A stretch of 64,000 nucleotides of DNA, taken from NCBI GenBank assembly GCA_017983635.1, contig JAGOBA010000004.1:372001-436000 (forward strand), in the 5' to 3' direction. The notes under the pieces were generated by a model, which was not told the origin of the DNA, searched no databases, and saw nothing but the letters and a program-made list of their open reading frames with translations. This DNA comes from Alphaproteobacteria bacterium (GTDB taxonomy: Bacteria > Pseudomonadota > Alphaproteobacteria > Micropepsales > Micropepsaceae). A program made the position numbers and the translations under genes. Positions 990 to 19,561 of this stretch are shown here, in pieces (within the stretch, counting starts at the first letter, position 1; every line of letters starts with the position of its first letter).

Positions 990-1003
990 GGCGCTACGCC
1001 TTC
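980..1003. terminator. Palindrome across the convergent OPT and speE stops
   Basis: A perfect 8-base stem (GAAGGCGT/ACGCCTTC) with an 8-base loop spans both stop codons. It could act as a bidirectional terminator, but neither side has a T tract and the arms are coding, so this is tentative. Confidence 0.35.
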
Positions 1004-1857
1004 ACCAAGCGTTCGATCCACGCCGGCAACGCGAACGCGGCGCGGTGGACGGCGGGCGTGTAGTAGTCCGTCCTCAGACGCGCGGCGGCGAATGAAGCGT
1101 CGAGGCCTGTCCACTTCGCGGGGTCGCCCAAGATCGCGTCGTTCGAAACCCACGTCAGCGCCATGAAGCCGCCGATGTAGCTCGGGACCACCGCGAGGTA
1201 GACGCCGCAGTAGCGGAACGTGCGCTGCATTTGCTTCAGCGTGTCGACGAGTTCCTCCGGCTGGAAGAATGGCACGCCGTTCTGGAACACGGCAAAGCCG
1301 CCGGGCGCAAGCGCCTTGGCGATGCGCTCGTAGAACGTGTCGCCGAACAGTACTTCGGCGGGGCCCACCGGGTCCGGCCGGTCGGCGATGATCAGGTCGA
1401 AGCGGCCGTGACTCGCCTTGTCGGCGAGGAAGACGAACGCGTCCTCGATCTGGATCTTGAGGCGCGGATCGGCGAAGGCGGCGGCGTTAACCTCGCTCAA
1501 GTGACGGCGCGACAAATCGACCACCTTCTCGTCGATTTCTACGTTGAAGACCGTGTTGACGCCGCGGTGTTTGAGCGCCTCTTCGGCGATTGCGATGTCG
1601 CCGCCGCCAACGATCATGACCTCCTTCACGGCGCCGTGTTCGAGCATCGGTACATGCGTCAGCATCTCGGAGTAACCGCACTCGTCGCGCGTCGTCAGCT
1701 GCACGATATCGTCGAGCACGAGCACGCGCCCGTTGCGCTTCGAGTCGAAGATCTTGATGTCCTGAAAACGGCTCTTTTCCGACACAATCGGCTTGCCTTC
1801 GATCTCGATCGTCTGAGCGAAACCGGGATGAAGTTTCTCCAGAAAAGTGTTCGTCAT
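994..1857 (-). CDS. speE: Polyamine aminopropyltransferase (spermidine synthase)
   Basis: Transfers an aminopropyl group from decarboxylated SAM to putrescine (or a related diamine), releasing methylthioadenosine. The protein (287 aa) aligns along its length with SpeE: N-terminal beta domain, GGGD nucleotide motif, IDEKVVDLSRRHL, and a DRPDP segment where most SpeE proteins have D-S/C-T-D-P. Both aspartates are kept, so activity is expected. The GGGDGG motif reads GGGDIA, a modest deviation that might affect substrate choice. An upstream ATG at 1863 lies only 3 bases from the AGGAG site; the ATG at 1857 has a 9-base spacing and is preferred. It is transcribed divergently from speD, which supplies its co-substrate. 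Confidence 0.92.
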   Translation of the reverse strand: MTNTFLEKLHPGFAQTIEIEGKPIVSEKSRFQDIKIFDSKRNGRVLVLDDIVQLTTRDECGYSEMLTHVPMLEHGAVKEVMIVGGGDIAIAEEALKHRGVNTVFNVEIDEKVVDLSRRHLSEVNAAAFADPRLKIQIEDAFVFLADKASHGRFDLIIADRPDPVGPAEVLFGDTFYERIAKALAPGGFAVFQNGVPFFQPEELVDTLKQMQRTFRYCGVYLAVVPSYIGGFMALTWVSNDAILGDPAKWTGLDASFAAARLRTDYYTPAVHRAAFALPAWIERLVKA

Positions 1858-1946
1858 CGGCATCGACTCCTGTGCGGTAAGCGGGATCGGAGAGAGGCAA
1901 GTTCGAAGCGTTCGAGTGGTGCTGTGCGGCGCTTCGGAGGCGCGCT

Positions 1947-2096: not shown

Positions 2097-2162
2097 GGTG
2101 GAATCACCAAGAGGCGGGCTTTGGCGGCGTGAGTTCCACGCCACTTGGTCACCTTAGGGTGC
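2097..2162 (+). promoter_or_regulatory. Structured 5' leader of speD (candidate regulatory RNA)
   Basis: Between the predicted promoter and speD several pairings can be drawn: GGTG/CACC (2097-2100 with 2105-2108, GAAT loop); an outer ACCAAG/CTTGGT stem (2106-2111 with 2144-2149) enclosing a perfect GGCGTG-AGTTC-CACGCC hairpin (2126-2142); and CACC/GGTG around 2150-2161. The first and second share bases 2106-2108, so they are mutually exclusive. I do not recognise a named riboswitch class. This may be regulatory or simply GC-rich chance pairing. Confidence 0.35.
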
Positions 2163-2192
2163 AACTGTTCTTCTGTTTTCGAGAGGTGCCTC

Positions 2193-2684
2193 ATGGCTCT
2201 TCCTGCACGCAAAAGAGCGGCTGTCGAAGTAACGCAGTTCCCGGTGAACCGCGCCAGAACGAAGTCCGTTCCGGTTCAGGCTCCAAATCCCGTTGTGGAA
2301 GCGGACGAAGATCGCAAAGACTATTTCATCACCCGCAACGGCGTGACGTTCGCGGGCAGCCATTTGATCCTCGACCTGTGGGACGCCCACGACTTGGACG
2401 ACGAAGCCAAGATCGAAAAGGCGCTCAAAGACGCGGTGACGGCTGCCGGAGCCACGCTCTTGCACATCCACCTGCACAAGTTCGAACCGAACGGCGGCGT
2501 GTCCGGCGTTGCGGTTCTGTCCGAGAGCCACATCTCGGTCCACACCTGGCCGGAAAAAGGCTTCGCGGCATTTGACGTGTTCATGTGCGGCGCGGCGCAA
2601 CCGACGAAGACGATCGCGGTTCTCGAGGCGGCGTTCCGCCCGAAGCGCGTGGTGGTCGGCGAGCACAAGCGCGGGATCATCTAA
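2193..2684 (+). CDS. speD: S-adenosylmethionine decarboxylase proenzyme (class 1B type)
   Basis: Makes decarboxylated SAM, the aminopropyl donor for SpeE. The 163-aa proenzyme has the self-cleavage motif SESHISVHTWPE with the pyruvoyl-forming Ser at residue 112 (cleaved after Glu111), the processing His117 and the catalytic Cys132 in FMCGA. About 40 residues of basic, Pro-rich sequence precede the core, longer than the usual roughly 120-residue bacterial form. The ATG at 2193 follows GAGAGG at suitable distance; an in-frame upstream start at 2145 adds a non-conserved leader and is not preferred. It is followed by a strong terminator and then by a decayed copy of its own 3' part. Confidence 0.95.
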   Translation: MALPARKRAAVEVTQFPVNRARTKSVPVQAPNPVVEADEDRKDYFITRNGVTFAGSHLILDLWDAHDLDDEAKIEKALKDAVTAAGATLLHIHLHKFEPNGGVSGVAVLSESHISVHTWPEKGFAAFDVFMCGAAQPTKTIAVLEAAFRPKRVVVGEHKRGII

Positions 2685-9025: not shown

Positions 9026-10098
9026 CCGATCTTGGCTCCCGCGCGCTGTCGGTCACGCCGCTGCATGCGCGCACCGCCGAACTTTGCGCCACGAACAATT
9101 GGACCGAGCAACAGGGCTTCACTGTCCCCGCGCTTTACGCGTCGCTGCGCGAAGAACACGAGGCGCTGAGCGAGCGCGTTGCGTTGAGTGATCTTTCTGC
9201 CCGTCAATGCTGGGTCTTCGACGGACCGGATGCGGCGGCGTTCTTGAGCTTTGCCACGCTCGCGGACGTGACCCGGCTTGAGATCGGCCAGACCGCGCAC
9301 ACACTTTGGTGCGATGACCAAGGCTTCGTCCGCGGCGAAGGCGTCATCGCGCGCTTCGCACCGGCGCAGTTCGAACTCTCGACCATCGTGCGCGACCTGG
9401 CCTGGATGATCGACGCGGTGAAGGGCTTCGATTTGAAACTCACGAACGTCACCGGGACACGCGCCATCATCGGTGTGCGCGGCCCGTTCGCGTCGATGCT
9501 GTTAGCCGTTGCAGGCTTCGCAGGCGAACCAGGTGGCGCCGGTTCCGTTACGCGACCCGCGTGGCGCCCTGCGCAAGTTGCGCTCACCCGCAACGCCGAC
9601 GGATTGGAACTCTCAAGCCAGGCGGACGACGGTGCCGTCGTTTGGGACCGTCTCTGGCGCGCCGGTGCCGGCCTTGGCATCGCTGCCGTCGGTGCCACCG
9701 CGCTGGAAACGTTTCGGATCGAGATGGCGACGCCAAGACCGGGAATCGATTGGCGCCCCGCCCAACTGGCGAAGGACGCGGCAGACTTGCGTCTCCCCAC
9801 CGACCTTGGCCAATTCCCCGACCTGACACGCCGCTTCAATGGCGCCGATGCGCTGCGCCGGATCACCACGCAAGGTCGCCAGGTGCTGGTCCACTTCACC
9901 GCCGACGAGCCGCTGAGCCCCGGCCCCCTCACCGCGCGCAACACCGCAATCGGGCGCCTAACATCTTGTACCTGGTCGGAGTCCCAAGCGAGCGCGTTCG
10001 CGCTTGGCTGGCTCGATGCCGACTCCGTCAAGCCGGGCACAAAACTCCAAGCCCAGGGCGGTCGGGCGGAAATCCTGAAAACGGTGTTTGCAGTCTAA
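9022..10098 (+). CDS. GcvT/aminomethyltransferase-family protein, folate-binding type
   Basis: The 358-aa product matches the GcvT fold: an N-terminal LYASLREEHEAL...VALSDLSARQ segment equivalent to the E-x-x-A-x-x-x-x-x-x-x-D-L-S region of glycine cleavage T protein, a central folate-type domain and a C-terminal barrel with ...LSPGPLTARNTAIGRLTS. Relatives demethylate glycine, sarcosine, dimethylglycine or DMSP using tetrahydrofolate. Since it is coupled to two flavin oxidases, an oxidative demethylation that passes a one-carbon unit to folate is a reasonable guess, not shown. Its stop overlaps that of mtnC by 4 bases, in convergent orientation. Confidence 0.8.
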   Translation: MTDLGSRALSVTPLHARTAELCATNNWTEQQGFTVPALYASLREEHEALSERVALSDLSARQCWVFDGPDAAAFLSFATLADVTRLEIGQTAHTLWCDDQGFVRGEGVIARFAPAQFELSTIVRDLAWMIDAVKGFDLKLTNVTGTRAIIGVRGPFASMLLAVAGFAGEPGGAGSVTRPAWRPAQVALTRNADGLELSSQADDGAVVWDRLWRAGAGLGIAAVGATALETFRIEMATPRPGIDWRPAQLAKDAADLRLPTDLGQFPDLTRRFNGADALRRITTQGRQVLVHFTADEPLSPGPLTARNTAIGRLTSCTWSESQASAFALGWLDADSVKPGTKLQAQGGRAEILKTVFAV

Positions 10099-10787
10099 GC
10101 GACGCGATCCATCACCGCCGTAAACGAGCCAATCACGGTCGTCGTACCATCACGCCCTTCGAACGCTACCGCCTTGGCGCGGTCCACGCGATAGACGTTG
10201 AGCCCCGCCGCCAGCGCGGCATCGGTCTCTGCGGGTGCGTCGGAGAAGAATGTGATCTTGTTGGCTTGCAAGCCGATGGCCGCTGCAATCTTCTTGTAAG
10301 ACGCAGGCTCGCCCTTCGGCCCCGTTGTCGTATCGAAGTAGCCGCCAATCAACGGCGTCAGATTGCCGGCGACGCTGTACTGCGCATAAAGCTTTTGCGC
10401 CTCGATCGATCCGGAGGAGTAGATGTAGACTCCGACGCTGCGCGCGGCCCAGGCGCGGATCGCTTCGATCGCATCCGGATAGAGATGCGCTTTCAGTTCG
10501 CCCGACGCATAGCCCTCGCGCCAGATGATGCCCTGCAGCGCTTTCAACGGCGTGATCTTCTTGTCCTCATCCATCCAGGCGAGAAACTGCGCGGTCGCGT
10601 CACGAGCATCGCCCAGGGCCCGACCCGAAGCTTCCCGGGCGCCCGCAACGCAGGTCGCGACCTCCGCATCGCTCCAGCGCGCCTTCAGCACGTCGGCGAC
10701 CCTCGCCCGCGCAAACGGGAACAAGACCTCGCGCACGAACGCGATGTCGCCGATCGTGCCTTCGATATCGAGCAGGACAGCGCTCAC
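10095..10787 (-). CDS. mtnC: Enolase-phosphatase E1 (2,3-diketo-5-methylthio-1-phosphopentane phosphatase)
   Basis: Carries out enolisation and dephosphorylation in the methionine salvage pathway, giving the acireductone used by MtnD. It is a HAD-superfamily protein with motif I DIEGTIGD at residues 7-14, a YSSGS motif II, and TFFSDAPAE motif IV near the C-terminus. GTG at 10787 overlaps the mtnD stop (GTGA) and gives 230 aa, the normal family length; the longer open frame up to 10925 is overlap with mtnD. It is the last gene of mtnB-mtnD-mtnC. Confidence 0.92.
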   Translation of the reverse strand: MSAVLLDIEGTIGDIAFVREVLFPFARARVADVLKARWSDAEVATCVAGAREASGRALGDARDATAQFLAWMDEDKKITPLKALQGIIWREGYASGELKAHLYPDAIEAIRAWAARSVGVYIYSSGSIEAQKLYAQYSVAGNLTPLIGGYFDTTTGPKGEPASYKKIAAAIGLQANKITFFSDAPAETDAALAAGLNVYRVDRAKAVAFEGRDGTTTVIGSFTAVMDRVA

Positions 10788-11347
10788 GCCGCTTTCGTTT
10801 CCGAAGAGTCGTAACCGGGGATCGTGTCGGCGATCTTGTCGCCGGTGAACGTCGCAACCCAACCGTCCGGCGTTGTGAACAAGCGGATCGCGGCAAAGAA
10901 CGGCCGCGGTCCCATATCGAACCAATGCCGTGTTTCCTTCGGCACGGACAACAGATCACCCTGCTCGCATACGACCTTCAGCACGTGATTGTCGTTGCGC
11001 AGATAAAATGCGCCCGCGCCTTCGACGAAGAAGCGCACTTCGTCGTCAGCGTGCTTGTGCTCCGACAAAAACTTCTGCCGCATCGCATCGCGGTCCGGAT
11101 GTTCCGGGTGCAAGCGCACCACGTCAACGGATTGATAGCCGCCGATCTTCTTCAAACGATCGATATCGCGCGCGTAGGCCTCCAGCACGGCCTCTTGGCC
11201 GGCGCCCGGCGGTAGCGGCTTCGTTGCCTCCCAGCGTTCGTAGCGGACGTCGAACGGCACCAGTGCCTTCATGATCTCGCGCGGGTCGCGCGTGGCCGCT
11301 TGCGGCGCCTTGCCCTTGTGCAGGTCATAGACCGTCAGAATGGTCAT
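10784..11347 (-). CDS. mtnD: Acireductone dioxygenase
   Basis: Oxidises acireductone to formate and 2-keto-4-methylthiobutyrate (Fe form), the penultimate step of methionine salvage. The 187-aa cupin shows the metal-binding set HKHADDEVRFFVEG (H-x-H and E) and ETRHWFD. Its start overlaps the mtnB stop by 4 bases and its stop overlaps the mtnC start, so the three are translationally coupled. Placing methionine salvage beside speE/speD makes sense because SpeE releases methylthioadenosine. Confidence 0.95.
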   Translation of the reverse strand: MTILTVYDLHKGKAPQAATRDPREIMKALVPFDVRYERWEATKPLPPGAGQEAVLEAYARDIDRLKKIGGYQSVDVVRLHPEHPDRDAMRQKFLSEHKHADDEVRFFVEGAGAFYLRNDNHVLKVVCEQGDLLSVPKETRHWFDMGPRPFFAAIRLFTTPDGWVATFTGDKIADTIPGYDSSETKAA

Positions 11348-11973
11348 GCCGGAATTCCTCTTAGCTTCAGCATCAATGTGAAAAGATAATCGAATGCGTC
11401 GAGATGTCGAAGGGCCTCCGTCGCGTCGCGGCCCCAGGCATAGAGGCCGTGCCCGGCCAGCAGAAAGCCGAAGCCAAGCCCATCGGCCTTGAGCTTCTTT
11501 TCGACACGGTGAGCCAGCGCGTCCATGTCCTGGTCGTTGTCGAAGATCGGGACGTCCAGATGCGTGTCGTGCGTTTTGATGCCGTTGAACGCCTTGAGCA
11601 GCTCCAACCCTTCGATCCTGACCTGTCGCTGCGGCATGTGAATCAGCGACGCCAGCACCGACGGCTGCGTGTGCACATGCGCGACGGCGCCGATGTCCGG
11701 CGACAGCCGGTACATCAAATAGTGCAGCGGTGCTTCGGCCGATTGGCGCACATGCGCGCCAGCGATCGGTGCACGGATGACGCCGTCCCGGGTCAGCTTA
11801 CCCTTGTCGCCGCCCGACGCCGTGATCGCGCAGTCGGTCGCGTCGATGCGCACGGAGAAGTTTCCGCTCGTTGCCGGGACCCAATCCTTCGCGCCTGCAT
11901 GATGTGCCATGGCCATCACGCCCAGCACCGCGTCTTCGGGAATGCTTTTTAGAGTCTGAGCGGCCACCTTCAT
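11344..11973 (-). CDS. mtnB: Methylthioribulose-1-phosphate dehydratase
   Basis: Dehydrates methylthioribulose-1-phosphate. This class II aldolase-fold zinc enzyme has the substrate loop TSGNFSVR, the AHVHTQ zinc histidines and a third histidine in LAGHGLYAWG. ATG at 11973 follows GAAGG with 7-base spacing and gives 209 aa; the upstream ATG at 11997 is less well supported. First gene of the mtnBDC operon; mtnA, mtnP or mtnK are not in the window. Confidence 0.93.
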   Translation of the reverse strand: MKVAAQTLKSIPEDAVLGVMAMAHHAGAKDWVPATSGNFSVRIDATDCAITASGGDKGKLTRDGVIRAPIAGAHVRQSAEAPLHYLMYRLSPDIGAVAHVHTQPSVLASLIHMPQRQVRIEGLELLKAFNGIKTHDTHLDVPIFDNDQDMDALAHRVEKKLKADGLGFGFLLAGHGLYAWGRDATEALRHLDAFDYLFTLMLKLRGIPA

Positions 11974-12016
11974 TCGCTTACCTTCACGCGGGGCCAAGTC
12001 AGCCCGGATGAGCGCG

Positions 12017-13856: not shown

Positions 13857-14972
13857 CTAACCGCCGCCGCGGGTTTCGGTCCAGAACTTCACGATTTCTT
13901 CCTTGTTCTTGAGCCGCACTTGGAAGGTGCCGGATTCCAGGAAGCCCTTCACGTCGCGAACGAAGCCCATTTCTTTCAACTGCTCGTCCGTGTAGTCGGC
14001 GAAAACGCTCATGTTCGCCGGACCGTTGTGCAGTTCTTCAAGTTGATACTTCATCGCCTCCGGCGAAATGCCGGAATCGATGAGTGCCAGCGCTTTGTCC
14101 ATCTTCTTTGTCTCCGCGTGGAGCACCATTCCGCACACATACGTGAACATGCCGCCGGGCGGGTTCATGTAAGCGACGGGCTTGCCTTCCTTCTTGAGTG
14201 CGGCATGCGTTTGGTTCCAGGTGATGGCGGCAACCACTTCGCCAGACGCGAGCCCTTGGCTCAACGACGTCTCGTCGCTGGAGATGAAGCGGGCGTTCGC
14301 TACGAACTCGCGCAACTTGCCCTTCACCGTTTCCCACTGCTCCGGCGTCATGTTGTAGGGATCGACGTCCCAGGTCTTTGCGATCAGCGTGACCGTGTCG
14401 TCGACGCCGTCCAAGCCCGCGACCTTGCCCTTGTATTTCGGGTCGAAGAGAATCTTCCAGCTCTCCTTGCCGACATATTCCGGTGCGAGGTCGGTGCGAT
14501 ACGTCACCGATGTGTTCGCCCAATACTGCGGAATGAACCAAGCCTCGGTCTCCGACTTCATCATGCCGGGGATGTTCTTGAGATAGTCGGGGATGTCCTT
14601 CCAGTGCTTCAGCTTGGTCACGTCGATCGGCTGAATGAGACCGGCTTCCTGCCAACGGCCAAATTCGTAAGAGCAGGGCGCCATAACGTCGGGTTTGTAG
14701 CCCGTGCGCATTTTCGCAAAGGCTTCGTCTTCGTCCGCCCAGATCTGCGTCTGCGGCGGCGCGCCGTACTGCGCCTTGTACTCCGCAACGAAGGGCGGAT
14801 CGGCCCAGTTCTCCCACGTGAAGAGCAGCGCTTCGCCTTCAGCCTGGTTGTCGGCGGGATCGGTGACGGCGGTTGTCGTATCGCCGGCCGGCTTTTTCGA
14901 CTGCATGAAGAAGTAATAACCGCCCGCGCCCAGCACGATGATGGCTAGGAGGGCGATCAGGGATCTGTTCAT
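13857..14972 (-). CDS. Extracellular solute-binding protein, PotD/polyamine type, membrane-anchored
   Basis: The 371-aa protein has a single N-terminal hydrophobic helix (about 3-24) with no lipobox, then a linker rich in Thr/Asp and a periplasmic-binding fold beginning LFTWENWADPPFVAEY, as in PotD-type spermidine/putrescine binding proteins. No permease or ATPase gene is adjacent, so it may be an orphan: either it feeds a transporter encoded elsewhere or it acts as a polyamine sensor. The location beside speE/speD and a PuuA-like gene supports a polyamine ligand, but ligand residues were not verified. The N-terminus resembles that of the neighbouring repeat protein (both begin MNR and a helix followed by Tyr-Tyr/Tyr-Trp). 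Confidence 0.8.
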   Translation of the reverse strand: MNRSLIALLAIIVLGAGGYYFFMQSKKPAGDTTTAVTDPADNQAEGEALLFTWENWADPPFVAEYKAQYGAPPQTQIWADEDEAFAKMRTGYKPDVMAPCSYEFGRWQEAGLIQPIDVTKLKHWKDIPDYLKNIPGMMKSETEAWFIPQYWANTSVTYRTDLAPEYVGKESWKILFDPKYKGKVAGLDGVDDTVTLIAKTWDVDPYNMTPEQWETVKGKLREFVANARFISSDETSLSQGLASGEVVAAITWNQTHAALKKEGKPVAYMNPPGGMFTYVCGMVLHAETKKMDKALALIDSGISPEAMKYQLEELHNGPANMSVFADYTDEQLKEMGFVRDVKGFLESGTFQVRLKNKEEIVKFWTETRGGG

Positions 14973-15085: not shown

Positions 15086-15406
15086 TTATTGAGCAGGCGG
15101 CGTCGCAGGCGCTGCCGGGTCGGCCGGAGCCGCCGCCGGGTCAGCCGGAGCTGCTGCCGGGTCAACCGGGGCCGCCGCCGGGTCAGCCGGAGCCGCGCCG
15201 TCAACCGGAGCCGCCGGGTCAACCGGAGCCGCCGCCGGGTCAGCCGGAGCCGCGCCGTCAACCGGAGCTGCGTCAGGCGCTACCGCACCTTCAACAGCCG
15301 TGCCTTCGCCTTCCGGCGCCTTCGCCATTTTGTTCGTGTAGTACCAGTACGCTGCGACCGCCAGGATGACGACCGCGATAAAGAGAAACAGACCAGTTCT
15401 ATTCAT
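15086..15406 (-). CDS. Membrane-anchored Ala/Pro/Asp-rich repeat protein
   Basis: A 106-aa protein: an N-terminal membrane helix (residues 4-24, ending YWYYTNK), a short acidic linker, then a tail made of repeats of PVDPAAAPADPAA type (units PADPAAA, PVDPAAA, PVDGAA) to the end. The tail should project into the periplasm as an extended acidic rod. A GGAGAG ribosome site precedes the ATG. Function unknown; similar anchored Pro/Ala tails serve as envelope spacers. Its N-terminus resembles that of the PotD-like protein downstream on the same strand, suggesting the two go to the same place. Confidence 0.75.
   Translation of the reverse strand: MNRTGLFLFIAVVILAVAAYWYYTNKMAKAPEGEGTAVEGAVAPDAAPVDGAAPADPAAAPVDPAAPVDGAAPADPAAAPVDPAAAPADPAAAPADPAAPATPPAQ
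15108..15285. repeat. In-frame DNA tandem repeats encoding the Pro/Ala tail
   Basis: Units of about 15-18 bases of the form GTCAACCGGAGCCGCCGCCGG and variants (GGGTCAGCCGGAGC) recur at least eight times. Such a tract is expected to vary in length by slippage. Confidence 0.85.
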
Positions 15407-15759
15407 TTTTCTCTCCGTTAATGGCCGTCATGGTGGCCATGAATCCCCTAGTCCCGCGGAGGTCGACGTACCTGGTCCTCTTTTGCAGAAAAGACGGCAC
15501 GCCGAAGCTGCCGCCTGTGCAAAAGTCCCCTCAGTACGTCCGAGCGCGACCTGGGTTACCAGATTAGTCCATTCCTAATTCCCAACAAGCGCGGCAGGTT
15601 CGCACACCCAAAGGGTCTTTTGCCGCAGGAATGCGGCTTGAACGCAGCGGAATCGTTGAGGTTTCCGACAATCGGCGGTTGCCGTCCGCGGGGTCCGACT
15701 CGTATGCTGGGTGTGCTTGGGACGCGGGCCTGTGGGGCGCTCGCGAGGGGCATGATTCG
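15407..15759. other. 353-base intergenic region between divergent genes
   Basis: Contains the upstream regions of the repeat protein (minus) and of the glutamine synthetase-like gene (plus). GAGGGG at 15745-15750 is a likely ribosome site for the latter. I see no gene, clear promoter or repeat otherwise. Confidence 0.5.
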
Positions 15760-17079
15760 ATGAATGTTCACGCCAGCACGCGCATCGACGCGGACGCCGC
15801 ATCGCCTATCGGTGCGGCGGAGGCGGAGGCGTTTCTCAAACAAAATCCACAGGTTCAATACATCGACTGCGTTTTCGCGGACATCTGCGGGAACGTTCGC
15901 GGCAAGCGCATCGCACGGAGCGAGCTCGAGGCGGTCTACCGCAAGGGCTTGCCCGTTCCGGCAACGATCTACTTCCTCGACGCGCGCGGCGAGGTGGCGG
16001 GGCCGTCTACCACACCCGGCGTCGCGTGGCCGGTGCCGGCAAGCCTGACGACTGTCAATTGGTCGCAGCGTCCGCATGGGCAGGCGTTGATGAGCCTGCA
16101 CGACGCGAATGGCGGTCCCTACTTCGGCGAGCCGCGCAACGTGCTCGCCCGCGCGCTTGACCGCTTCGAGGACATGAATCTGATCCCCGTCGTTGGAACG
16201 TCGTTGCAGTTCCATTTGCTCGAACGATCGAAAGGTCCACCGCAAAAACCGGCGGGCCTCGACGCCGGGCGCCTTGAAGACGTTATGGCCGCTATCGCGG
16301 AGGCCGCCGAAGCGCAACATTTGCCGAAGTTCAAGTGGTCGAGCGCAACGCCCGGGCAATTCACGCTGACCTCGACGCCGCAAGCGGACGTTTGCCGTGC
16401 CGGTGATCACGCAGTTTTCTTGCGCCAGATCGTGCGCGCCGTTGCGCGTCAGCATGAGATTGATGCGACGTTCATGGCCAAGCCCTTTTCGAACATCGCG
16501 GGGAATGGGTTGCAGGTGAGCGTCGGGTTACAGCATCCAACCGGCGAGACGGTCTTCGATGTCGCGAGCGCCGAAGGGGCGACCCTGCTGCGCGCGGCGG
16601 TCGGCGGTCTGCAAGCATTGCTCGCGGAATCGATTGCGTTCTTCGCGCCGAACGTCAACGCGTACCGGCGCTTTACGTCGGAAGCATCGGCGCCGCGCAA
16701 CAAACGCTGGGGTTTTGCCAATCGAACCGCAAACCTCTCGCTGCCGGGTACGGCCGACGAACCACAGATGATCAACCATCGTGTCGCCGGCGCCGACGCG
16801 AACCCCTATTTGGTTCTGGCTGCAATCTTAGCCGGGGTGCATCACGGCATCGCGCAACAGCTTGATCCCGGCGCCGCGTTCGACGGCGATGCGGCTGGTT
16901 TCGTGGACGAGACGTTGCCGTTCACGATCGACGGCGCGCTACTTACGCTTGAGAACGGATCGATAATGCGCGGGTATCTTGGTCCCGCGTATGTCGATCT
17001 CTACTGCGCGACGAAGCGCACGGAACTAGAGCGCTTCCGCGCCTTCATTCCGCCGCACGAATTTGATTGGTATCTGTAA
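15760..17079 (+). CDS. PuuA-like glutamine synthetase-fold protein lacking the metal ligands (predicted pseudoenzyme)
   Basis: The 439-aa protein aligns end to end with gamma-glutamylputrescine synthetase PuuA: N-terminal beta-grasp (YIDCVFADICGNVRGKRI), then ATFMAKPF, APNVNAYRRF and GADANPYL scaffold motifs. The catalytic residues of the family are replaced: the E-L-E-F ligands read SLQF (Ser148, Gln150); the E-x-x-PGQFE pair reads SATPGQFT (Ser195, Thr202); the G-S/N-G-x-H ligand reads GNGLQ (Gln252); the Arg of NRTxxLR is Ser327; and the R-V-E-x-R glutamate is Asn339. Without these no metal-dependent ligase chemistry is expected. The frame is intact and the fold conserved, so it is probably expressed as a binding or regulatory protein. 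Its 3' end overlaps the histidine kinase gene by 35 bases, convergently. Confidence 0.88.
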   Translation: MNVHASTRIDADAASPIGAAEAEAFLKQNPQVQYIDCVFADICGNVRGKRIARSELEAVYRKGLPVPATIYFLDARGEVAGPSTTPGVAWPVPASLTTVNWSQRPHGQALMSLHDANGGPYFGEPRNVLARALDRFEDMNLIPVVGTSLQFHLLERSKGPPQKPAGLDAGRLEDVMAAIAEAAEAQHLPKFKWSSATPGQFTLTSTPQADVCRAGDHAVFLRQIVRAVARQHEIDATFMAKPFSNIAGNGLQVSVGLQHPTGETVFDVASAEGATLLRAAVGGLQALLAESIAFFAPNVNAYRRFTSEASAPRNKRWGFANRTANLSLPGTADEPQMINHRVAGADANPYLVLAAILAGVHHGIAQQLDPGAAFDGDAAGFVDETLPFTIDGALLTLENGSIMRGYLGPAYVDLYCATKRTELERFRAFIPPHEFDWYL

Positions 17080-19561
17080 GCGCGAGCGTTTGTTCCTGCG
17101 GCGCCAGCGGTAGGCTGAACGTCACGCTCGTGCCGATGTCGAGTTCGCTTTCGATCTCGATCTTGCTGCCGTGCAGTTCGACCAACGCGCTCGAAACGGC
17201 AAGTCCAAGACCCATGCCGCCGTTGTTTTGCTTCGCCGCCGCCTCGACCTTTTCGAAGGGCTTTACGATCCGCGGGATGTCCGCTTCGTCGATGCCGATG
17301 CCGGTGTCATGTATCCAGATTGCGACCCGGTCGCCCTCGCGCCGCGTTTCGACGGTGATGTAGCCGTCGGAGTTGTTGAACTTGATCGCGTTCGACAACA
17401 GGTTCAGCAGCACCTGCTTGATGGCGCGCTTGTCGGCGAGAACCGGCGGCAGATCGGGCGTGTTTACCCGCAGTTGCAGCCCCGCTTCTTTGGCGCGCGG
17501 CTCAACCGTCGTGATGACGTCGTTGAGCAGGGCGGAAGCCTCCACCGGCACCATATCGAGCTCGAACTTGCCTGCTTCGATCCGCGCCATATTGAGCACG
17601 TCGTTGATCAGGTCGAGCAGGTGCTGACCGCTGCGATGGATGTCGGCCGCGTATTCGACGTAGCGCGGGGGCAGGGCGCCCAGCATCTCGTTCCGCATGA
17701 CGTCCGAGAAGCCGATGATCGCGTTCAGCGGCGTGCGCAGCTCGTGGCTGACATTGGCCAGGAACTCCGACTTCGAACGGCTTCCCTCTTCGGCGCGTTC
17801 TTTCTCGGATTCGAGCCGCATCGCAAGTTCGGCGAGTTCGTTGCGTGACGCCTGCAGTTCGTCCTCGTGTGCTTTGAGCGCCGTGATATCGGTCGCCACC
17901 GCAATCTTACCGCCATCGAGCGCGCGCCGTTCGCTGACCAGCAGCCAGCGGCTGCCCGCACGTTGCAGTTCGATCGTGCCCGTGTTGCCGCTGGAGTCGA
18001 ACATTTCGAGCGGTTGCGTGGACGCGTCCGCGCTTTCGCCCGGCGCCTTGGCGCGGCCAAAAATTGCGTGCCGGCTTTCGCCCGCTTTCGCATCCGAGAC
18101 GCCATAGAATTCCTGGAATCGTTTGTTGCAGACGATCAACCGTTCGTCGCGATCCCACAGAGCGAATGCCTCAGCCGCGTTCTCGAACGCCGCTTCGAGC
18201 ACACGCTCCGCCACATCGACACGCGCATCGGCGGTCTTTTGATCCGAAACGTCGAGGACGATGCCGGACAAGCGACCGCCCTCCGACCTTACCGTGCGAT
18301 AGTGTTGCCCCTTCGCGCGCAACCAAACCCAATGCCCGTCGGCGTGCTGCGCCCGGAAGGTTTGATCGTACGACGTCGCGCCGGTTTGCACCGATCCTTC
18401 GATCGCGCTCAACACGTAGCGGTCGTCCGGATGGATCAGCTCCTCGGCTTCCTCAAGCGTGAGCAAGCGCGGCTGCCGGCCTTGTCCGAGCAACGCGTTC
18501 ATTGCGCCCGACCAATAGAGCCGCTTGTTCGCAACGTCCCAATCCCAGATGCCGCATTTGGCGCCGCTGACCGCGAGTTCGAAGCGCTCCTCCGTCCGTC
18601 GCAACGTGTTGTCGACGCGCGTTGTCTGTTCCATCTGCATGAGCAATGCCCATGCGAGCCCCGCGCCCAACAGGCTCGGTCCGAAGATCATGATCGAATA
18701 GAGCGGCAGCGACTCGTACCACTGCCCAAGCGCCTCTGCCGCGCGCGTCACCGTGACAAGGCGCAGGTCATAGCCCGGCACCAGCCGCGCTGTCGCCAGA
18801 TAGTTCACTCCACTGTCGGTGACATAGCGCAATGACGGGGTGGTGGTGACTGTCGCCGGGATAGCCGCCGCCACTTGCGCATAGAGCGCCTCGTCGATGG
18901 AGGTGCCGGCAACGACGTTGGTTCGCGCGTCCGACAACAGCACGTTCATGCTGCGGCCGCCGCGGACGTTCTCCAACATGCGCGTGAGGTAGGCCGGGCT
19001 CAAGATTGCAACGAGGTACTCGCCGGGCGTGTCGCTGCGCATCGCCAGTGCAACGGGACTCTTGCCGAACTCACGGTCGTCGATCGGTCCGGCGAGGTAA
19101 CGCACGCTCTCTTGCGACGAGCGCAGCTGCCCGAGCAGGTTCATATCGCTGAGCCGGCGCGGCTCACCGGGGGTGCCGTCTTTGTCCCAGGCGACGTTGC
19201 CAAGCGTGTCGGTTGCAACGACGTTCAATAGCGCGGGATCGGTCGCGACGATCGAGGCGCCGGAGGCGACGCGCGATGCGCGCGATACCATCACCTGCGT
19301 CCGGTCCAACGCCGCGCCGACGATCGTTCCGGAAACGGCAATGAACGAACGCGACTCCCGCTCGACCTGCGCCAAAGCGATCGCGTGGTCTTTGCGCATT
19401 TGAATGGCGCCAGCGGCCGCCACCGAGAGGACGGTCGCGAGCGTCCCCAAAATGATCCAGAGCGACATGCGTCGCTTAGCTGCCGGCCGGATTTGCGCCG
19501 CAACGCGTTCGCGCGATCCACCAGTTACCGTTGTCGTGGCTATTGCCATTGTCGATTGCAC
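17045..19561 (-). CDS. PAS-domain sensor histidine kinase, PleC/DivJ-like
   Basis: An 838-aa inner-membrane kinase. Two membrane segments (about 34-54 and 285-308) flank a periplasmic sensor domain; two PAS domains follow (about 325-445, starting FELAVSGAKCGIWDWD, and 455-575), a short coiled coil, a HisKA domain with phosphorylated His606 in NVSHELRTPLNA, and an HATPase domain with N (LLSNAIKFNN), G1 (DTGIGID) and G2 (GMGLGLAV) boxes. The SRSKSEFLANVSHELRTP context is characteristic of alphaproteobacterial PleC/DivJ/PdhS-type kinases. No response regulator is adjacent. Alternative start at Met5. Confidence 0.9.
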   Translation of the reverse strand: MQSTMAIATTTVTGGSRERVAAQIRPAAKRRMSLWIILGTLATVLSVAAAGAIQMRKDHAIALAQVERESRSFIAVSGTIVGAALDRTQVMVSRASRVASGASIVATDPALLNVVATDTLGNVAWDKDGTPGEPRRLSDMNLLGQLRSSQESVRYLAGPIDDREFGKSPVALAMRSDTPGEYLVAILSPAYLTRMLENVRGGRSMNVLLSDARTNVVAGTSIDEALYAQVAAAIPATVTTTPSLRYVTDSGVNYLATARLVPGYDLRLVTVTRAAEALGQWYESLPLYSIMIFGPSLLGAGLAWALLMQMEQTTRVDNTLRRTEERFELAVSGAKCGIWDWDVANKRLYWSGAMNALLGQGRQPRLLTLEEAEELIHPDDRYVLSAIEGSVQTGATSYDQTFRAQHADGHWVWLRAKGQHYRTVRSEGGRLSGIVLDVSDQKTADARVDVAERVLEAAFENAAEAFALWDRDERLIVCNKRFQEFYGVSDAKAGESRHAIFGRAKAPGESADASTQPLEMFDSSGNTGTIELQRAGSRWLLVSERRALDGGKIAVATDITALKAHEDELQASRNELAELAMRLESEKERAEEGSRSKSEFLANVSHELRTPLNAIIGFSDVMRNEMLGALPPRYVEYAADIHRSGQHLLDLINDVLNMARIEAGKFELDMVPVEASALLNDVITTVEPRAKEAGLQLRVNTPDLPPVLADKRAIKQVLLNLLSNAIKFNNSDGYITVETRREGDRVAIWIHDTGIGIDEADIPRIVKPFEKVEAAAKQNNGGMGLGLAVSSALVELHGSKIEIESELDIGTSVTFSLPLAPQEQTLALTDTNQIRAAE

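Follow-up and report, generated by a model that had tools for sequence, protein, structure and literature searches.

In the window (the whole 64,000-nt stretch of DNA analysed), one gene most likely encodes a genuine pseudoenzyme, judging from its sequence and a predicted structure. The putative pseudoenzyme has the glutamine synthetase (GS) fold and the descent of a gamma-glutamylpolyamine synthetase, lacks every metal ligand, and appears to be retained for its fold or assembly. To the full reading, in which ligase activity was lost in the ancestor of eight sampled species of the genus and the protein has since been kept for its fold or assembly, in the service of polyamine balance, we give a probability of roughly 0.6. 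The gene and the altered sites, all placed by alignment, are as follows.

15760..17079 (+): putative GS-fold pseudoenzyme gene, SpuI/PuuA-type by descent (open frame, PF00120, AlphaFold2 model, same-locus orthologues in the genus)
16201..16209 (+): codons 148-150, S148 and Q150 in place of the E-x-E metal pair E129/E131
16342..16365 (+): codons 195-202, S195 and T202 in place of the second metal pair E212/E220
16513..16521 (+): codons 252-254, Q252 and S254 in place of H269 (metal) and H271
16738..16740 (+): S327 in place of catalytic R344 (R to S also in G010 and G003)
16774..16776 (+): N339 in place of the metal ligand E357

The GS fold and the lost active site

The reading frame is uninterrupted and specifies a protein of 439 aa that belongs to the GS superfamily. 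Residues 124-438 match PF00120 (E 8.9e-63; 212.9 bits against a Pfam cut-off of 24), and an AlphaFold2 model, for which an alignment of 21 orthologues served as input, displays a complete GS fold (pLDDT 83.7, pTM 0.88). Compared by VIA-align, the predicted model scores a Z of 47.4 against 5dm3 and above 40 against many solved synthetases. Several scaffold motifs and the fold are unbroken, and the motifs align with those in solved GS structures.

SpuI and PuuA are gamma-glutamylpolyamine synthetases (PMC9397018), and the initial annotation had related the window protein to such ligases from end to end. This relationship is borne out: homology to SpuI (PA0296) and PuuA runs the full length, with the same fold and motifs, and in a quick, midpoint-rooted tree the protein is nested among intact relatives, including those of Parvibaculum, and away from the paralogues L003 and L004. 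The difference from SpuI and PuuA lies in the loss of all metal ligands. The NCBIfam model GGputSyn gives the window protein 151.3 bits, below its curated cut-off of 650, and is non-discriminating here, E. coli PuuA itself scoring 198.7.

To map the ligand positions, the protein was aligned with the type I GlnA of the same organism and with its three further GS-family paralogues, each of them intact; the ligands carry Salmonella GS residue numbers, and the positions in the window protein come from the alignment. All six metal ligands are replaced (E129 by S148, E131 by Q150, E212 by S195, E220 by T202, H269 by Q252 and E357 by N339), as the initial annotation had read from the sequence, and the active-site arginine R344 is indeed lost (S327). 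H271 is also replaced (S254), and three arginines are kept in the window copy (R321, R339 and R359, equivalent to R304, R322 and R341). The true ligands do not sit at shifted positions: Asp and Glu are absent from residues 190-209 and from the E-x-E position, and there is no stand-in acid or His. In some alignments S195 slips by one to A196, owing to a one-residue deletion, and both residues are non-acidic. When 84 sequences were examined together, most of them database relatives from named genome contigs and a few of them reference sequences, the full set EEEEHHRRRER was found in 82, the exceptions being the window protein and one contig of the same genus; chance is far from explaining the loss.

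At the ligand positions of an active gamma-glutamylpolyamine synthetase (PuuA, SpuI or PauA), the window protein thus reads S, Q, S, T, Q, N. From what is known of how GS works, this protein, lacking its metal ligands, is very unlikely to catalyse ATP-dependent ligation. The combination of lost catalytic residues and a kept fold, seen in the alignment and in the predicted model, is that of a pseudoenzyme. It differs from GlnA2 of Streptomyces coelicolor, a characterised polyamine ligase that has conserved metal, ATP and glutamate sites and carries its substitutions in the ammonium site (PMC8998196).

Loss within the genus and constraint after the loss

An orthologue is present in 10 of the 11 genomes of the genus, the other nine being 53–61% identical to the window copy, and a match was found in 48 of 96 family genomes. 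Intact orthologues occur in the genus and the family (G009, G004, G018 and others), mostly at the same locus and with 42–54% identity. The ligands are intact in G009, in G018 of a neighbouring genus and in 36 further family orthologues that cover the sites; outside the genus, all 37 orthologues checked have an intact metal site. The copy of G004 has a single ligand change, E220 to Gln, and keeps the other five. The remaining eight copies are wrecked, with none of the six ligands left in the window copy and 1, 1, 3, 2, 2, 2 and 2 in the others, and the equivalent of E220 is lost in all eight. Since the lost sites occur in eight separate genomes, a sequencing or assembly error can be dismissed.

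The eight wrecked copies group in a single clade (SH-aLRT 100), whose sisters are G009 and G004; the sisters and outgroup in the tree are L011 (6/6 ligands), L012 (5/6) and L023 (6/6). The same split is recovered in a tree built from neighbouring genes, which places G007 on the wrecked side (branch support 94/96, with some rows sparsely filled). In this smaller genome the GS gene is cleanly absent between the histidine kinase and PotD genes (L182:9754-10603), so it is dispensable at least in G007. Derived active-site losses are common to subclades, namely R327S to the window copy, G010 and G003, and S256A and others to G001, G005 and G006, which dates the loss before the subclades split. The initial annotation had raised the possibility of a clade of homologues with the same substitutions. 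The clade stands, and the same substitutions do not: each species has lost a different set and the replacing residues differ between species, which excludes a single substitution set throughout. What the clade has in common is a missing metal site, not a new set of residues.

The claim that the intact frame speaks against simple gene decay is supported. All eight frames lack internal stops, where neutral simulation at similar amino-acid identity predicts 5–8 stops per gene and a probability of at most about 0.01 of having none. For the clade, M0 gives an omega of 0.10; a model with omega = 1 is worse by 533 log-likelihood units and is rejected. Two trios of members with common derived active-site losses, which hence diverged after the onset of the loss, give omega values of 0.055 and 0.082, compared with 0.04–0.05 for PepN and PotD. 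Synonymous sites are saturated, which biases the M0 estimates low, and the GS trees are several times longer than those of the neighbours. Scaling the dN of the GS gene by the dS of its neighbours gives an omega of approximately 0.2–0.25, by rough arithmetic; region-wise omega values were set aside because saturation inflates the branch lengths. Constraint on the GS gene is weaker yet far from neutral. The signs of a pseudogene (stops, frameshifts, omega near 1) are not seen among the eight copies, and the clade and trio estimates, together with the open frames, indicate purifying selection after the loss, to a precision limited by the saturation of dS.

This constraint is uneven along the chain, with two regions that retain the identity profile of intact relatives.

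15820..16179 (+): residues 21-140, N-terminal domain and first helix of the C-domain, conserved about as in intact relatives
16900..17076 (+): residues 381-439, C-terminal helices ending EFDWYL, identity profile as in intact relatives (column conservation 0.82)

Conservation of the active-site segments in the clade falls to 0.27–0.47 (residues 141-220), 0.36–0.39 (241-280) and 0.33 (321-340), against 0.55–0.85 in intact proteins. Each wrecked copy has lost 27–38 of the 105 residues that are invariant in 21 intact orthologues, and many of these losses fall at metal, amine and ATP sites; all eight copies still have 37 of the 105. Only seven positions look newly conserved in the wrecked clade, which gives little sign of a new function. 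The GS protein also evolves much faster than others, the path between the window and G010 copies measuring 0.96, compared with about 0.07 for a PuuA-like paralogue.

Upstream of the gene lies a short conserved element.

15669..15681 (+): 12-base element CAATCGNCGGTTG, an imperfect inverted repeat starting 91 bp before the ATG

The element is exact in seven of the eight clade members, 91–100 bp before the ATG; G002 and the intact sisters differ from it at two or more positions, and the genome holds three copies. It is not a coding N-terminal extension, as it stands in different frames relative to the start codon in different species, and a scan for sigma-70 promoters found none.

Genomic neighbourhood and polyamine metabolism

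The gene order around the GS gene is mtnC-mtnD-mtnB, an ECF sigma factor gene, two small genes, potD, an Ala/Pro-rich gene, the GS gene, a PAS histidine kinase gene and the gene for PepN. From mtnC to PepN it is largely conserved in the genus, and in the family it is conserved in part.

994..1863 (-): speE, spermidine synthase (TIGR00417, 256.1 bits, over cut-off)
2145..2684 (+): speD, S-adenosylmethionine decarboxylase (TIGR03330, 134.7 bits, over cut-off)
10095..11997 (-): mtnC, mtnD and mtnB, methylthioadenosine salvage (TIGR01691, PF03079, TIGR03328)
13857..14972 (-): PotD-like solute-binding protein, divergent neighbour (PF13416; NCBIfam PotD/PotF matches below cut-off; synteny)
15086..15406 (-): small Ala/Pro-rich protein with an N-terminal membrane segment, between the PotD and GS genes
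17045..19561 (-): PAS/HisKA histidine kinase, convergent, with a 35 bp tail-to-tail overlap with the GS gene (Pfam; synteny)

The polyamine context is stronger than the initial annotation saw, with speE, speD and mtnBCD in the same window; the proximity of these genes brings together spermidine synthesis and salvage of its by-product, methylthioadenosine. The PotD and histidine kinase genes adjoin the GS gene in most members of the genus. The PotD gene is missing in G009 and G004, the two members of the genus with an intact or near-intact GS (L047, L048), and the histidine kinase reading of G005 (L045:3602-6079) contains an internal stop that may be an assembly frameshift or mark a broken gene. 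To call PotD an orphan, as had been done, was too strong. A potB-potC-potA operon without a binding protein of its own lies about 18 kb upstream of potD, outside the window (contig C24, 364.7-367.5 kb; L187:8707-11545), so the window PotD is probably no true orphan and may be the binding protein of that operon.

The Ala/Pro-rich protein begins MNRTG(L/I)FLF(I/V)A and is found in the same place in six genomes; its membrane segment, MNRTGLFLFIAVVILAVAAYW, is near-identical in several genomes, and its tail is repetitive and variable. Near the start of this gene is an inverted repeat (ATGGCC-N8-GGCCAT, 15421-15440) present in most members of the genus, including G009, G004 and G007.

Elsewhere in this genome, on contig C21, genes for a PuuB-like oxidase and an aldehyde dehydrogenase occur together. 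A strong PuuB-like oxidase is encoded in all eight wrecked genomes and in G007 (L147-L155), and is absent from G009, G004 and G018. This is a correlation only. We draw no causal link from the oxidase to the GS loss, given that the pattern amounts to one clade-level difference and that G095 and G023, with moderate hits, keep an intact GS. At the Parvibaculum loci (L062, L063), a gene for a PuuB-like FAD oxidase immediately precedes the intact relative; on the other side of that relative, L063 has frames that, as read, resemble histidine kinase, PepN and CarD. An intact Pseudomonas relative (L065) shares 38% identity; the divergent block next to it looks, by our own reading of its frames and with gene names assigned by us, like spuB-spuC-spuD.

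Explanations for the retained protein

The history that we favour would begin with a SpuI/PuuA-type gamma-glutamyl-polyamine ligase at the same locus in the ancestor of the family. The alignment and tree show that metal and catalytic residues were lost in the common ancestor of the eight sampled species, after the split from G004 and G009, and with the metal site the activity presumably went too. Since then selection has continued to act on the N-terminal domain and on the outer and C-terminal helices while the active-site strands drift, so that the product has persisted as a folded pseudoenzyme. That these regions are retained suggests a function in assembly or in contacts at the protein surface. 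The protein would then act through shape and assembly and not through ligand chemistry in the old pocket, perhaps as a non-catalytic, GS-like ring subunit or scaffold that binds another protein, or that joins and tunes a competent GS-family paralogue. Polyamine balance is the process it would serve, as suggested by the neighbouring speE, speD, mtnBCD and potD and by potBCA outside the window.

Its genome encodes candidate intact GS-family partners. A SpuB-type paralogue (L003) is present, by score, in at least nine of the 11 genomes of the genus; a PuuA-like paralogue of the L017 type was not found in G006 or G007, and so is not a universal partner. In a more specific and rather unlikely form of the proposal, the protein would be a regulatory subunit in mixed rings with an intact paralogue such as L003, setting the capacity or substrate choice of polyamine glutamylation. 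Each active site of a GS ring is formed where two subunits meet, from the C-domain of one and the N-domain of the next, with participation of the Asp50 loop, which reaches across to the adjoining subunit (PMC10799026). A dead subunit whose N-domain is intact could, in a mixed ring, still supply its part of the adjacent subunit's active site, although it would have no working site itself. The corresponding region is:

15976-15990 (+): LDARG, residues 73-77, Asp50-loop region (profile alignment to Methanosarcina mazei GS; D74 and G77 kept in all eight copies)

An exact equivalence of D74 with Asp50 is ruled out, the profile alignment placing Asp50 two residues away, beside R76, so the match extends to the loop region only. 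Conservation of D74 and G77 would allow such completion of a neighbour's site and does not show it.

The clean deletion in G007 and the fast evolution of the protein keep alive a different explanation, that of a relic in slow decay: the ligase became unneeded, selection relaxed, and what constraint is left acts, for example, against toxic misfolding. The loss of different ligands in each species, the few newly conserved positions and a third-position GC of 0.72, against about 0.80 in the neighbours, would all fit. We consider it unlikely but a real contender, for the absence of stops in all eight frames where neutral drift predicts several, an omega far below 1 even when calibrated on the neighbours, an N-domain and C-terminal helices conserved over long branches as in intact enzymes, and the conserved upstream element all argue against decay.

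The initial annotation had suggested a sensor or regulator working with PotD. The old cleft would then still bind polyamine, glutamate or a nucleotide and signal, perhaps to the histidine kinase or PotD, an arrangement suggested by the polyamine neighbourhood, by the adjacency of both genes in most of the genus and by the retention of three of the four catalytic-site arginines in the window copy. A conserved sensor should keep its ligand site, however, and within the clade no part of the protein is less conserved than the old pocket. The retained arginines themselves vary (position 322 reads R, K, A, K, R, P, A, A), and PotD has a plausible ordinary partner in potBCA, so that idea is weakened and a conserved polyamine sensor in the old pocket is improbable. 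The same variability weighs on the idea that other residues of the cleft now carry out another reaction. The fold and several scaffold motifs are intact, as this would require, but there are no conserved new polar residues at the site and the substitutions differ from species to species, so that rebuilt chemistry seems very improbable.

Retention for fold or assembly, the reading we prefer, has a parallel in lengsin, a GS-I-type pseudo-glutamine synthetase of the vertebrate lens that is inactive, dodecameric and retained for another role (PMC2667176). The feature in common would be a catalytically inactive GS-type protein that has been kept. Lengsin, however, is eukaryotic and lens-specific, and is reported to keep the conserved GSI regions with a changed N-terminal region, whereas the window protein keeps its N-domain and loses the active-site strands. 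GS-type pseudoenzymes are thus already known; in the open papers searched, lengsin was the only one described, and none was of the bacterial polyamine-ligase type. A further comparison is with the intact orthologues of the genus and family (G009, G018 and, with its E220Q change, G004), which are the same gene with the ligand set kept.

As a rule, the conversion of an enzyme to a pseudoenzyme comes into view only when it is long past. In this genus, the same locus carries an enzyme that is still intact, a copy that is nearly so (E220Q), no fewer than eight dead copies that drift separately and, in one species, a clean deletion, and therefore the steps by which catalysis is lost while the protein is kept can be ordered and tested. 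If the idea of mixed rings is true, the dead subunit would bring a further level of regulation to polyamine metabolism in bacteria.
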